This document shows, in pieces, positions 4,217-10,397 of a stretch of 33,601 nt of DNA. Under the pieces are notes generated by a model that saw only the letters and a program-made list of their open reading frames with translations, was not told the origin of the DNA and searched no databases. Source of the stretch: Candidatus Doudnabacteria bacterium (GTDB lineage Bacteria; Patescibacteriota; Doudnabacteria; UBA920); assembly GCA_016218585.1 (NCBI GenBank), contig JACRDK010000025.1, positions 91,637 through 125,237 on the forward strand. Reading direction: 5' to 3'. The translations under genes and the position numbers were made by a program. The number at the start of each line of letters is the position of its first letter. The stretch's first letter is position 1.

Positions 4217-4260
4217 TTTATTAAAACCCCACAAATAAAAGCATAAAAAATTTAATCCAT

Positions 4261-4296
4261 AAGAGCAAAAGAAAATTTTTTCTTTTGCTCTTATTT
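4261..4296. terminator. 15-bp stem terminator abutting the downstream promoter
   Basis: AAGAGCAAAAGAAAA-TT-TTTTCTTTTGCTCTT followed by ATTTT; ends at the -35 of the next promoter. Confidence 0.85.
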
Positions 4297-4324
4297 TGAC
4301 AAAAATTTTAATTTCTGCTATAAT
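4296..4324 (+). promoter_or_regulatory. Consensus sigma70-type promoter with extended -10
   Basis: TTGACA (4296-4301), 17-nt spacer, TGC-TATAAT (4319-4324). Confidence 0.85.
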
Positions 4325-4330
4325 ATATTT

Positions 4331-4378
4331 AGTCGATTAAACTTACTTTCGCGCCAAAATAGTGCGAAAGTTTGAAAC
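4331..4378 (+). ncRNA. Candidate structured 5' leader RNA, copy 1
   Basis: AGTCGATTAA then stem ACTTTCGC/GCGAAAGT, loop GCCAAAATAGT, then TTGAAAC; the same architecture recurs at 9341-9390. Confidence 0.7.
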
Positions 4379-4450
4379 AAAAATAAAATTAAATTACAAA
4401 ATCAATTCAGGGCTCAAAATTAGCTCTGCAAGATTTTGCAAAGGTGTTAT

Positions 4451-7400
4451 ATGAACCCTTATGCTTACCAGAAGACGCCAATGCGTCCTTCTGTGAGTGC
4501 CCAAGAAGGCGAGTCTTTAACCGGACTAGCCAAGAAGTTTTTAAGTGCCTTAGCGGGAGCGAAAATTAGCGCCGTTACCGCTGTGGCATTTATTTTATTT
4601 GCAGCGGTTTCCGTTGGTGCGATTACGTTGGTTAGTTATTCGGAAATTGCCGGAGAAAATGGTTTGGTAAATGCGGTCCAACCGGTTAAATCAAAAGTTC
4701 TCGGCGTGGCCACCTATGGCTACAATCAGCCAATCTGCCAAAAAAATACCGCCAACTGTTTAAATTACCAATTAATAGGTTACTCCGGCGCGGGTTGGCA
4801 AGTTCAAATAAACTATCAATTGCAGAATAACCTTAAAGGCGCGATTAAGGTAAATACTTGGAATTTTATGGATAATATAGTAGGCAGCGGCAATGGCCGC
4901 ACCGGTTACGATTTAATTCCTGGGAAAACCTATACTTTTGTCTTATATGCCAAGTCAGGATCATCTCTATATAAACTAACAAGCCTGAGCATTACCGCTC
5001 CGCAGGCCCCGACTGATCCGGTTGCTTGCGCGCAAGACGCTTACCTTTGCCCCGATGGATCATATGTCGGAAGAACTGCTCCGTCATGCAATTTTATTTG
5101 CCCAGCGGTTCCGGCTTATGGATATACAACCGCAAATGTTGGTCCTGTTAATCAGGGGGAGTGGAGAGAAGGTTGGATCGAAAGATTTAGCGCAACTAAT
5201 TACGCCACCGAGCCTTCAGATGTAACAATTGAAGGTTGGGCTTATGATTCAGGTAAAAACATTGACTTAAAAATTGTTCTTAAAGATGCTGTGACCGGTC
5301 GCGAGTACCAAGGGCAAATGGTGGCACAGTCGCCTCTAAGAAGCGATATCGTTTCGTATCTAAATAAAATTACCGGCAGCAATAAGTCCAGCACTTCCGG
5401 CATGTTTAGGATGTTGTTTTCTAATGTCCCGGCTGGAAAATATTATTTAGCAAATGCCAGATATAATGGATATTTATTTAATATCCATAGCCAGGCCAAC
5501 CAGCCTTTATATATTAGCGCTAAGCCTTCTTATGGGTATAAAGGCGGTTTGAATATTTACTCTTGGGATACTACCAAACAAGTTGAGACCTCCGCTGGCA
5601 AGACCGGAGTAGAATTATTTTCTTTCGAGGTTAGCAATAGTGCCGGAACCGGCCCTTATGCTTTAAGCAGTTTAACTTTCAGCTCAGCTTCGGCAGATGC
5701 GTTAAAAAGTCTTGGCAACTATTGGGTTACCGACGAATATGGTAACATTATCGGAAAAAAAGATACCGTGGTTTCACCAAGTGTAACTTATGGGTATAAT
5801 GTGATTTTTACTTCGCCTTTAGTTATTTCTGTTAACGCCGTAAGATATTTGAAATTCAAAGCCGACATATTAAGCACCGCGCCAAACACAACTTTTCAAC
5901 TCCAGGCCCTCGGAATTGGCTATTGGTATCCAAATACATATGGATATAGCTATCCCGGCCAAGTTAACGGTTTAAACAACCCAATAAGCAAAACAATTAT
6001 TATTACTTCATCAGCTGGGCAAACTGGTTCGCCCAGGGTGGGGCAGTTAATAAATAAATCAGGCACTGTGTTTTTGGTTGGCAATGGTGTGATTTATGGC
6101 ATTCCTTCTTTGGCCGTGTTTAATTCTTGGGGTTGGAATTTAGGGAATATTGTAAATTCTAATTCGTCTGAAGACGCGCTTCCTCAAGGCGGCGTGGTTC
6201 CATTTAGGGATCCAAATTGCAGTACTGCTTTAGACCAGATCTTGGGCAAGTGTCCGGTTAGCGCTAAGCCAATCGATGTCGCAATTTCCTTAAACAACGC
6301 AGTGGCATCGCCGATAATAGTTATCCCAGGGCAAACAAATCAGAAAATTGCCTCATTTGTAATTAGCAGCGGAACCAGCGGGGAAGTTAATGTCTCATAT
6401 ATTGGTTTCTTTGCTCAAGCAGGGATAGAAAAATTTCAAAATTTGAAAATGATGGTTGGTTCTACCCAAGTTGGAGCGACAGTGGCGGCTCCTATTGCCG
6501 GACAAAATTACTATTTTAGCCCCTCAGCTTCGGGCTTAAAGATTCCGGCAGGCGGCCAAATAATTGTTGACGCTTACGCTGACGCAACAACAAGCGCTAA
6601 TGTTAACAACGCAATACTTATAGCAATTAATAAAATTTCAGGAACGCTGACCGCCAGTGGCAGAGCTTTGCCTGATGGTTTGGGATTGACAGGGCAGTTA
6701 ATTATAACTGACAGCGCCGCAGCAGACAGTGGCTTTAGTATTAAGGCAAGCTCTTTAGCATACTCATTGACAGTAACACCTGGTTTGGGCAAGCAAAAAA
6801 TTGGTTCGTTTGATTTAACAGCCAGCGTCGCAGGAGACGTTGCGATTAACACTATAACTGTTTATATGACAAGAAATGTCATCGGTGATAGTTTTAGCGG
6901 CCTATATTTAAGGGATGGGCTTACAGGTTACCCATTAGGTTCTGTTCAATCTTATGTTACCAGCAATGGCATCTATACATTTACGCCAGGCAGCCCATTG
7001 GTTATTGCCGCCGGTTCTAAAAAGGTGATTGAGATTTATGCTGACATAGCGGCCAGCGCCTCATCTTTAAACATTAGCGGACAAAACTTATTAGGGATTT
7101 TAAAAGTAGCCGCTTATAAATATAATACAGGCGTGGCTATAAATATTCCTTCTCCAGTCGCCGGGCAGTTAATTTATTTTTCAAACACATCCGTTAATCA
7201 TGCTCCGTCCGCTCCGAGCATTCCTTTTGGTTTGGGAACCGCTTTGCAGCCTGGCGTTTCGCAAAAGATACAATTTGTCGCCAACGATGCCGATCAGGAC
7301 CAGCTTACTTATAACATAGTTTGGGGCGATGGCTCAGCTACTACTACGCAAACCGGACTTGCCGGCACAACATTGGAAACATCTCACGTTTGGGCCTCTG

Positions 7401-7861
7401 CCGGGACGTATATTGTCAGAATTTTTGCCAGTGATGGCAAAGGCGGATCGTCTAGCAATTACTATATTGCAACAGTAATAGCTACGGTACCGACGCCGAC
7501 CGTTGCTTTGTCCGCAAGTTTTGTATCTCAAAGTGTTCCTTCTACTGTGGCCGCCGGATCTTATTTGGATGCCGTAATAATATTTAAAAATACCAGCACT
7601 CAAACCTGGACTAACAGCCTTAGTAACTATCAGTTTCAAATTGGTTCTCAAAATCCAACCGGGAATAAAACTTGGGAAGGAAATGCTTTAACTCTTTACA
7701 AAGATATTTTGCCTGGAGAGACGGTAACTTTTGCATTTCACGTTAAAGTTCCCACAGTAGCAGGGACTTATAATTTCCAGTGGCAAATGCTACAAAATAC
7801 TTCCGCTGGGGCGAAATATTTTGGTGATTTAACGCCGAACGTTCAAATTGTTGTAAAGTAA
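4451..7861 (+). CDS. Large membrane-anchored surface protein (MNPY family) with repeated beta-sandwich, PKD-like and NBR1-Ig-like domains
   Basis: Start set at MNPYAYQK by homology with the second MNPY protein. N-terminal TM; internal paralogous ~110-aa beta domains; PKD-like ...ANDADQDQLTYNIVWGDGS...HVWASAGTYIVRIFASDGKGGSS; C-terminal SQSVPSTVAAGSYLDAVIIFKNTSTQTWTN...WQM resembling NBR1 Ig-like. Confidence 0.8.
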   Translation: MNPYAYQKTPMRPSVSAQEGESLTGLAKKFLSALAGAKISAVTAVAFILFAAVSVGAITLVSYSEIAGENGLVNAVQPVKSKVLGVATYGYNQPICQKNTANCLNYQLIGYSGAGWQVQINYQLQNNLKGAIKVNTWNFMDNIVGSGNGRTGYDLIPGKTYTFVLYAKSGSSLYKLTSLSITAPQAPTDPVACAQDAYLCPDGSYVGRTAPSCNFICPAVPAYGYTTANVGPVNQGEWREGWIERFSATNYATEPSDVTIEGWAYDSGKNIDLKIVLKDAVTGREYQGQMVAQSPLRSDIVSYLNKITGSNKSSTSGMFRMLFSNVPAGKYYLANARYNGYLFNIHSQANQPLYISAKPSYGYKGGLNIYSWDTTKQVETSAGKTGVELFSFEVSNSAGTGPYALSSLTFSSASADALKSLGNYWVTDEYGNIIGKKDTVVSPSVTYGYNVIFTSPLVISVNAVRYLKFKADILSTAPNTTFQLQALGIGYWYPNTYGYSYPGQVNGLNNPISKTIIITSSAGQTGSPRVGQLINKSGTVFLVGNGVIYGIPSLAVFNSWGWNLGNIVNSNSSEDALPQGGVVPFRDPNCSTALDQILGKCPVSAKPIDVAISLNNAVASPIIVIPGQTNQKIASFVISSGTSGEVNVSYIGFFAQAGIEKFQNLKMMVGSTQVGATVAAPIAGQNYYFSPSASGLKIPAGGQIIVDAYADATTSANVNNAILIAINKISGTLTASGRALPDGLGLTGQLIITDSAAADSGFSIKASSLAYSLTVTPGLGKQKIGSFDLTASVAGDVAINTITVYMTRNVIGDSFSGLYLRDGLTGYPLGSVQSYVTSNGIYTFTPGSPLVIAAGSKKVIEIYADIAASASSLNISGQNLLGILKVAAYKYNTGVAINIPSPVAGQLIYFSNTSVNHAPSAPSIPFGLGTALQPGVSQKIQFVANDADQDQLTYNIVWGDGSATTTQTGLAGTTLETSHVWASAGTYIVRIFASDGKGGSSSNYYIATVIATVPTPTVALSASFVSQSVPSTVAAGSYLDAVIIFKNTSTQTWTNSLSNYQFQIGSQNPTGNKTWEGNALTLYKDILPGETVTFAFHVKVPTVAGTYNFQWQMLQNTSAGAKYFGDLTPNVQIVVK

Positions 7862-9305: not shown

Positions 9306-9334
9306 TTGACAAGAGCTAAAATTTCTGCTATAAT
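9306..9334 (+). promoter_or_regulatory. Consensus sigma70-type promoter, near-copy of 4296-4324
   Basis: TTGACA (9306-9311), 17-nt spacer, TGC-TATAAT (9329-9334). Confidence 0.85.
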
Positions 9335-9340
9335 ATATTT

Positions 9341-9390
9341 AGTCGATTAAAAATTATCTGTTGTGCCAAAATAGTACAATAGATTGAAAC
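9341..9390 (+). ncRNA. Candidate structured 5' leader RNA, copy 2
   Basis: AGTCGATTAA, stem TCTGTTGT/ACAATAGA, loop GCCAAAATAGT, then TTGAAAC. Confidence 0.7.
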
Positions 9391-9578
9391 CCCGGTAGTA
9401 AAATTCAAATGTGATTTTATTTCGGGGTAGAAACAAAAAGGTTACTATCTTGCCCGCGTGCAATGTTATAAAAACATTTACTACGGGGCAGGCAAAAATA
9501 AAAATTAATTAGGCCAGGTTTGATTTTGCGTTATAGCTATACGCGAAATTTTCTAAATTTGCGCCCAAGGAAGAAAAA

Positions 9579-10397
9579 ATGAATCCTTACACATACCACA
9601 AGCCAAAAAGAATGGCTGTGGCCGCAAGTCAGGACAGTCCTTCCGGCTCGCCTAAAGGCGGCGGGTCGTGGCTAAGCAATATAATTAATGCCCCTATAAA
9701 CTCCGCTGTTGCCCTGGCTTTTGTTTTGTTTGCCGCCAGCGCAACCGCAGGCATTGCTGCTATAGCATCGCCGGAAATTGCCATGGACAATTCGAGTTTA
9801 CCAGCAACACATATAGTTGTGTCCAGAGTTTTGGGAGAGTCGGTAACCCAGCCGGTTATTGACGACGCAGCTTTGGAAGCCGCAGAGCCAACCGGTTATT
9901 TAATTGCTAAGCCGGTTAATTTTGACGCTACTTTAGGGCGTTGGGATTATAAATTAAGTTACGAAGTCGCTAACTTAACCGGTCCCGCGGTTTTGTCGAT
10001 TGGCAGCTATGCCGTGCAAAGCAATATTACTGCTTCCGGCACAGTCGAAACCGGTTATATTTTAAAACCTAATAGGGTTTACCGGGCGACTCTTTGGTTT
10101 ACTGATTCAGCCGGCCAAAAAGTTAAACTGGCCAGAGTGGAAATTAAAACAGACAAAGCACAAAAGCCTGGAAAGAATGACCGCAAGCCGATTTTGTGCC
10201 CGCAAACGCAGGTGCAAGGCCAGGTTGCGAGCTCAACGCCAAGCACCAAACCTTCCTTGTGCGTGAAGAAGGAAGACGGCACGCTGGCTTGTTTGCCCCA
10301 GCAGTGTATTGTTCCGGAATGGAAGCCGGAAGATAAAAACGCCAGCGGCACTTCTGAAGGGCTGTTGCATAAAACACCTCTTGCCCCAATTCGATAA
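9579..10397 (+). CDS. Membrane-anchored surface protein, MNPY family (short paralogue)
   Basis: MNPYTYHK..., TM segment VALAFVLFAASATAGIAAI..PEIA..N, V.SRVLG, plus a W-x3-L-x-Y...NLTG...TGYILKPNRVY domain matching the N-terminal ~200 aa of the 4451 protein. Confidence 0.75.
   Translation: MNPYTYHKPKRMAVAASQDSPSGSPKGGGSWLSNIINAPINSAVALAFVLFAASATAGIAAIASPEIAMDNSSLPATHIVVSRVLGESVTQPVIDDAALEAAEPTGYLIAKPVNFDATLGRWDYKLSYEVANLTGPAVLSIGSYAVQSNITASGTVETGYILKPNRVYRATLWFTDSAGQKVKLARVEIKTDKAQKPGKNDRKPILCPQTQVQGQVASSTPSTKPSLCVKKEDGTLACLPQQCIVPEWKPEDKNASGTSEGLLHKTPLAPIR

Follow-up and report, generated by a model that had tools for sequence, protein, structure and literature searches.

The window, by which we mean the whole stretch of 33,601 nt that was analysed, lies at the end of contig C22 of a 1.19-Mb genome. 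It contains two divergent genes on the forward strand, whose products both start with MNPYxY at the N-terminus and continue with a hydrophobic segment. MNPY gene 1 (4451–7861) encodes 1136 aa with one N-terminal hydrophobic segment and PKD and Ig-like domains; MNPY gene 2 (9579–10397) encodes 272 aa with no Pfam domain. Each gene is preceded by a sigma-70-like promoter, TTGACA-N17-TATAAT with TG (4296–4324 and 9306–9334, forward strand). Both match the consensus at 12 of 12 positions; the first-pass annotation had already called them consensus promoters. The same leader was found in G003, a genome of the same genus. A near-perfect palindrome, AAGAGCAAAAGAAAA/TTTTCTTTTGCTCTT, is situated at 4260–4297, between a PilB-like ATPase gene and the copy 1 promoter; it probably serves as a terminator and directly adjoins the −35 box.

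Hairpins in the two leaders

Both leaders begin with AGTCGATTAA (4331–4340, identical to 9341–9350, forward strand), and transcription of copy 1 appears to start near 4331–4340. Other leaders have ACAAGTT.. at this position; AGTCGATTAA is local to the window's own genome. The hairpin of copy 1 (4345–4371, forward strand) has a 10-bp stem, ACTTTCGCGC/GTGCGAAAGT, and the loop CAAAATA (4355–4361). In copy 2 (9356–9384, forward strand), an 11-bp stem, ATCTGTTGTGC/GTACAATAGAT, carries the same loop (9367–9373). The first-pass annotation had described two leader copies with an identical loop, TTGAAAC and AGTCGATTAA, and both were found in place. It had given each an 8-bp stem (4345–4352 with 4364–4371; 9357–9364 with 9376–9383) and an 11-nt loop (GCCAAAATAGT, 4353–4363; 9365–9375). 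The arms do pair, but the dimensions had to be corrected: GC and GT within the supposed loop also pair, which gives 10 bp in copy 1, 11 bp in copy 2 and a loop of 7 nt. TTGAAAC stands at 4372–4378 and 9384–9390. Copy 1 scored 34.8 bits with model R1 and folds at −14 kcal/mol (z-score −3.7); the z-score of copy 2 was −3.5.

The pattern CAAAAT(N)A occurred at 544 sites in 415 kb of the genome, and all nine flanking pairs were formed only at copies 1 and 2. With permuted loops as a control, nine of nine pairs were found in 3 of 9316 cases. The exact loop with TTGAAAC occurred only twice in the whole genome. A CRISPR repeat, suggested by the TTGAAAC end, was rejected because there are only two genome copies and their stems differ.

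The copy 1 leader folds into a second hairpin near the start codon (4397–4438, forward strand). It has an outer stem (4397–4403/4432–4438), an inner 7-bp stem (4408–4414/4422–4428) and the loop CAAAATT. Hairpins with CAAAAT-type loops were seen at comparable places near the start codon in G003, G005, G008 and G011. The loop might have paired with ATTTTG close to the SD, but this was rejected, as the ATTTTG of copy 1 pairs with a local CAAAATC instead. No intrinsic terminator was found on the sense strand of either leader. Transcription attenuation is therefore unlikely, and an effect after initiation, on translation or stability, is more likely.

Covariation in three gene contexts

Among 98 relatives, the exact-loop pattern matched in the window's own genome only, because a single loop base or the tail is different in the relatives. 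The relatives missed in this way were recovered by a protein-homology search. For set A, MNPY homologues were collected by protein similarity and their leaders were then read. The site was defined as the first [CG]AAAAT[T/C]?A in the leader plus ten bases on each side, with pairing ignored. Set A comprises ten leaders; those of G008 and G009, which have the promoter and GAAACAAAAA and no such hairpin at position 1, were left out. Paired cells made up 91% (shuffled: 59%), and there were 31 double-change cells compared with a shuffled mean of 10.8, with double changes at nine of the ten pairs. Covariation was 0.867 vs. 0.247 in shuffled data, and it fell to 0.10–0.21 when the partner was slid by 1–3 columns. 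The pair adjacent to the loop was C-G in all ten leaders. Tandem hairpins are present in A leaders.

Set B consists of orthologues of a CAP-domain membrane protein (PF00188), collected by protein only. Leaders with promoter, hairpin and GAAAC were found in G001, G005, G008, G011, G013, G014, G015, G017 and G018; a second family of the order (G031, G035) has such leaders too. The loop is altered in G000 (the window's genome), G002, G003, G009 and G012/G019, and the leaders in G004 and G016 have no hairpin. Some orthologues without the hairpin keep the rest of the leader. Since some orthologous genes lack the hairpin or have altered loops, it is not indispensable. The MAFFT alignment of set B (A8) was misaligned and was left out.

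Set C was first revealed by model matches and then collected by its flanks only. Its architecture is GTAGAAAATTAAG-[hairpin]-(CA)GGGAGACTAGCCCA-ATG, upstream of a Lys/Arg-rich peptide of 13–44 aa. The flank search gave exactly one locus in 14 of 49 class genomes, including the window's own (G000:C30:14243), and no match in the controls. The loop was C-AAAA-[T/C]-n(0-2)-A in 12 of the 14; it was shifted in G017 (AAAAATCA), and G013 has another hairpin. In these 12, 92.5% of cells were paired, with 22 double-change cells vs. 7.1 in the control. The hairpin abuts the SD, lying directly 5' of GGGAG-ATG. Most terminators 3' of set C genes have CAAAA in the loop. Such loops are otherwise rare, with 6 of 231 terminator-like hairpins in a sample of the own genome, one of which is the set C terminator.

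The own-genome locus of this peptide (L128, G000:C30:14243–14330) and 13 relatives (L122–L135) form a leader RNA that is strongly conserved and single-copy, in which CTACT and AGTAG flank a variable hairpin; one encoded peptide is MATKKKAKKKVAKKKTTKKSSKKRA. The own-genome locus lies after apparent atpC and pcnB genes. Neither Pfam nor Rfam gave a match to this leader locus. In G027 (L172), a coding region with a Lys-rich end (KKAKKTAKRKTSKKRR-stop) is closely followed by a CCAAAATCAG-loop hairpin and then a T-rich run.

Over all 32 canonical hairpins, 124 double-change cells were counted, compared with 40 in the control. Covariation was 0.993 vs. 0.242, and slid controls reached at most 0.23. 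In these figures, the B rows and two second-position rows were chosen with their pairing known, while the A and C sets were not. The consensus is a stem of 9–11 bp with free sequence and the loop C-AAAA-[U/C]-n(0-2)-A, with an almost invariant closing C-G. Loop length varies between 7, 8 and 9 nt at one position. The stems of different hairpins are unrelated in sequence, and only 8–10 loop-proximal positions are conserved. The same loop recurs in three leader contexts and three gene families that are unrelated to one another, even within one genome (A, B and C in G005). The hairpin sits about 15–20 nt past the inferred transcription start of surface-type genes and is often repeated near the start codon. 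Its distance from the promoter is constant in A and B leaders, and its distance to the start codon ranges from about 15 to over 200 nt.

It is nearly certain that the hairpin is a selected RNA structure. The first-pass annotation had taken the conserved loop and covarying stem as the hallmark of a functional RNA, and the A and C sets, collected blind to structure, do covary above controls. Further members with covarying stems, which it had proposed to look for, were found in all three sets, and they sit at gene starts. The surface-protein (MNPY) regulon that it had proposed proved too narrow, as the hairpin also precedes genes for CAP-domain membrane proteins and the Lys-rich micro-peptide.

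Leader motifs and distribution

TTGAAAC had been regarded as part of the hairpin unit, a view that was given up. In copy 1 it belongs to TTGAAACAAAAA (4372–4383, forward strand), a generic leader motif, TTGAAAC(AAAAA), that is also present in hairpin-less leaders. In a sample of the own genome, GAAAC[ACG]AAAA followed 9 of 76 TGNTATAAT promoters, where 0.24 were expected (an enrichment of about 38-fold); two of these nine sites are coding starts. As the sites are mostly without a hairpin, this is a generic A-rich leader motif and not a hairpin part. TTGAAAC was also dropped as a defining feature because the promoter plus TGAAACAAAAA pattern mixes real leaders with coding starts (MKQK..). The GAAAC[ACG]AAAA motif is enriched 3' of extended −10 promoters, often beside the start codon, for example as GAAACAAAAATG at ~2551–2563 before the PilB-like ATPase. 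It may serve the lineage as a translation start signal without an SD.

The copy 2 leader contains a further module, M2 (9390–9493, forward strand), which is common to leaders in G002, G005 and G007. It consists of a local hairpin CCCCGGTAGTAAAAT..CGGGG, then GAAACAAAAA, and then CTTGCCC..TTTACTACGGGGCAGGC. The general pattern, CCCCGGTAGTAAAA..GAAACAAAAA..CTTGC..TTTACTACGGGGCARGC, spans about 105 nt (L004, L053, L109, L140). M2 is part of the leaders of MNPY genes as well as CAP-domain genes, and one leader has it twice. Its CCCCGGTAGTAAA could pair locally or with the downstream TTTACTACGGGG; three pairs have double changes among six sequences, which are too few to call a switch. On the reverse strand of L004 (G002), the hairpin CCGGTATAGCTCTCGGAGATTATACCGGGCAAGC is tandemly duplicated in the 5' leader of an MNPY gene.

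A stem-blind pattern scan of a collection of 85,462 species gave 39 loci. Nine of them pair at 7 or more of nine positions, and all nine are leaders with promoters from the class Doudnabacteria; the remaining 30 pair at 2–6 of nine. In a sample of the phylum, 21 of 35 class genomes had a match at E≤0.01, compared with 17 of 345 others, where about 3–4 were expected by E-value. Among the inspected out-of-class matches, only G069 was convincing: there, two CAAAATTA hairpins in tandem accompany a promoter, and a membrane-protein gene lies downstream. Two of the best out-of-class matches, L166 and L171, were set aside as intergenic and without a recognisable leader, as were matches within coding sequence (L089, L110). 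Judged by these matches, the hairpin is mainly a feature of the class Doudnabacteria, whose members are uncultured, ultra-small bacteria. Own-genome figures are quoted from model R1; model R2 misses copies 1 and 2, probably because 7-nt loops do not pass its pre-filter.

No Rfam 15 family matched in the window at the gathering cut-off. Permissive scans of both leaders gave sub-threshold matches only, and a scan of ten relative loci gave only tRNAs. The element had not been recognised as a known family in the first place, and these scans agree. Searches of PMC open-licence papers brought up nothing relevant on such motifs in Patescibacteria; the small size of the hairpin may explain its absence from motif surveys.

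Proposed function and comparison with known systems

From sequence comparison, we infer a regulatory role in cis for this RNA hairpin, as a control signal that several genes have in common and that has not been described so far. We give about an even chance to its being the site of a putative trans-acting RNA-binding protein that affects translation or mRNA stability. Such a protein would read the loop and closing pair on a helix, of which only the pairing would matter. Bound near the 5' end and the ribosome site, it would alter the translation or stability of the mRNAs as one regulon. A constant loop and closing pair, a free but paired stem, several unrelated mRNAs, tandem sites and placement at the 5' end or the SD are what is expected of a loop-reading RNA-binding protein. 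A conserved loop, a covarying stem and several mRNAs per genome, as in a protein-binding leader hairpin regulon, were all found. The variable distance to the start codon fits poorly with one simple occlusion mechanism.

Cells of Patescibacteria attach to a host and differentiate into an attached and a swimming state; the regulation of these states has been called completely unknown, and translational control is suspected (PMC11665869). As a concrete cis element, the hairpin links surface-protein genes within a single lineage, in a group that lacks Hfq. It is a rather bold and improbable extension that a lineage-specific post-transcriptional regulator jointly switches the surface proteins, the CAP-domain membrane protein and the Lys-rich micro-peptide, for instance when cells change between attached and free-swimming life. 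Possibly the micro-peptide itself would be the autoregulated RNA-binding regulator, similar to boxB/N. In its own mRNA the hairpin sits at the SD, and most of its terminators have loops of a similar kind.

The alternative that fares best, though we consider it unlikely, is a 5'-end stabiliser. A hairpin near +15 would shield abundant mRNAs from RNases, and the loop would be kept for folding stability or for a ribonuclease. The constant promoter distance in A and B leaders agrees with this, and surface proteins are often abundant. However, in C, and at the second site in A leaders, the hairpin stands beside the start codon, a long way from the 5' end. A pure stabiliser requires no invariant loop or closing pair, and CAAAA loops are rare in the other strong hairpins of the own genome.

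Direct contact with the ribosome or an r-protein, with the loop as a standby or enhancer element, is doubtful. The hairpin is near the start codon in C and several A leaders, and Patescibacteria ribosomes are unusual (PMC11665869). Yet none of the matches inspected when the class and genus were searched with the models lay in rRNA, contrary to what an rRNA mimic would lead one to expect, and many well-positioned genes have no hairpin.

Antisense control, in which a small RNA forms a kissing complex with the loop, is very unlikely. A conserved, unpaired A-rich loop in many mRNAs would suit it, but the loop changes in length by 0–2 nt in its middle, so protein or structural recognition fits better than antisense pairing. 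Moreover, it would offer only five or six weak A/U-rich contacts, and Hfq (PF17209) was absent from all 49 class genomes, while 5 of 14 control genomes have it.

We give hardly any weight to a small-molecule riboswitch or transcription attenuator, a reading that the first-pass annotation had entertained. The leader position and the alternative pairings of the larger M2 in copy 2 speak for it; the conserved hairpin positions are too few for a typical aptamer, and the missing terminators and Rfam matches count against it. A DNA-level inverted repeat (operator), a mobile palindrome or chance can practically be dismissed: an inverted repeat does lie near the promoter, but its arms share no sequence between copies and yet pair, the loop is always on the mRNA strand, and covariation is far above controls.

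Some known hairpins resemble the element in part. Stabiliser hairpins of the ompA or S-layer mRNA type are found in the 5' UTR of abundant mRNAs for envelope proteins, close to the 5' end. In contrast to the present hairpin, in which conservation lies in the loop and closing pair, they have no loop that is kept across a regulon. Lambda boxB is a small hairpin with an A-rich loop that is read by the short basic N peptide. One of the genes with the present hairpin likewise encodes a basic micro-peptide, and any link is speculative; there is no antitermination context, and the peptide is low-complexity lysine.

The targets of ANTAR proteins (EutV/NasR/AmiR) are short hairpins in which certain residues of the terminal loop are conserved; they are often tandem, recur across a regulon and are bound by a dimeric RNA-binding protein (PMC3369931). 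The present hairpins are likewise short, loop-conserved, often tandem and common to a regulon. They differ in that ANTAR targets have short stems and hexanucleotide loops with A1 and G4 (PMC3369931), while the loops here are 7–9 nt, begin with C and sit on stems of 9–11 bp. The second ANTAR hairpin also overlaps or competes with an intrinsic terminator, which neither of the two window leaders has. With CsrA/RsmA the element would have in common that translation of surface and motility mRNAs is controlled through specific loops, with several sites per leader. CsrA requires GGA (PMC4894983), which is absent from every loop in alignments A5, A7 and A9. In mechanism, the hairpin comes closest to the ANTAR and CsrA targets, but its loop does not fit the definition of either.
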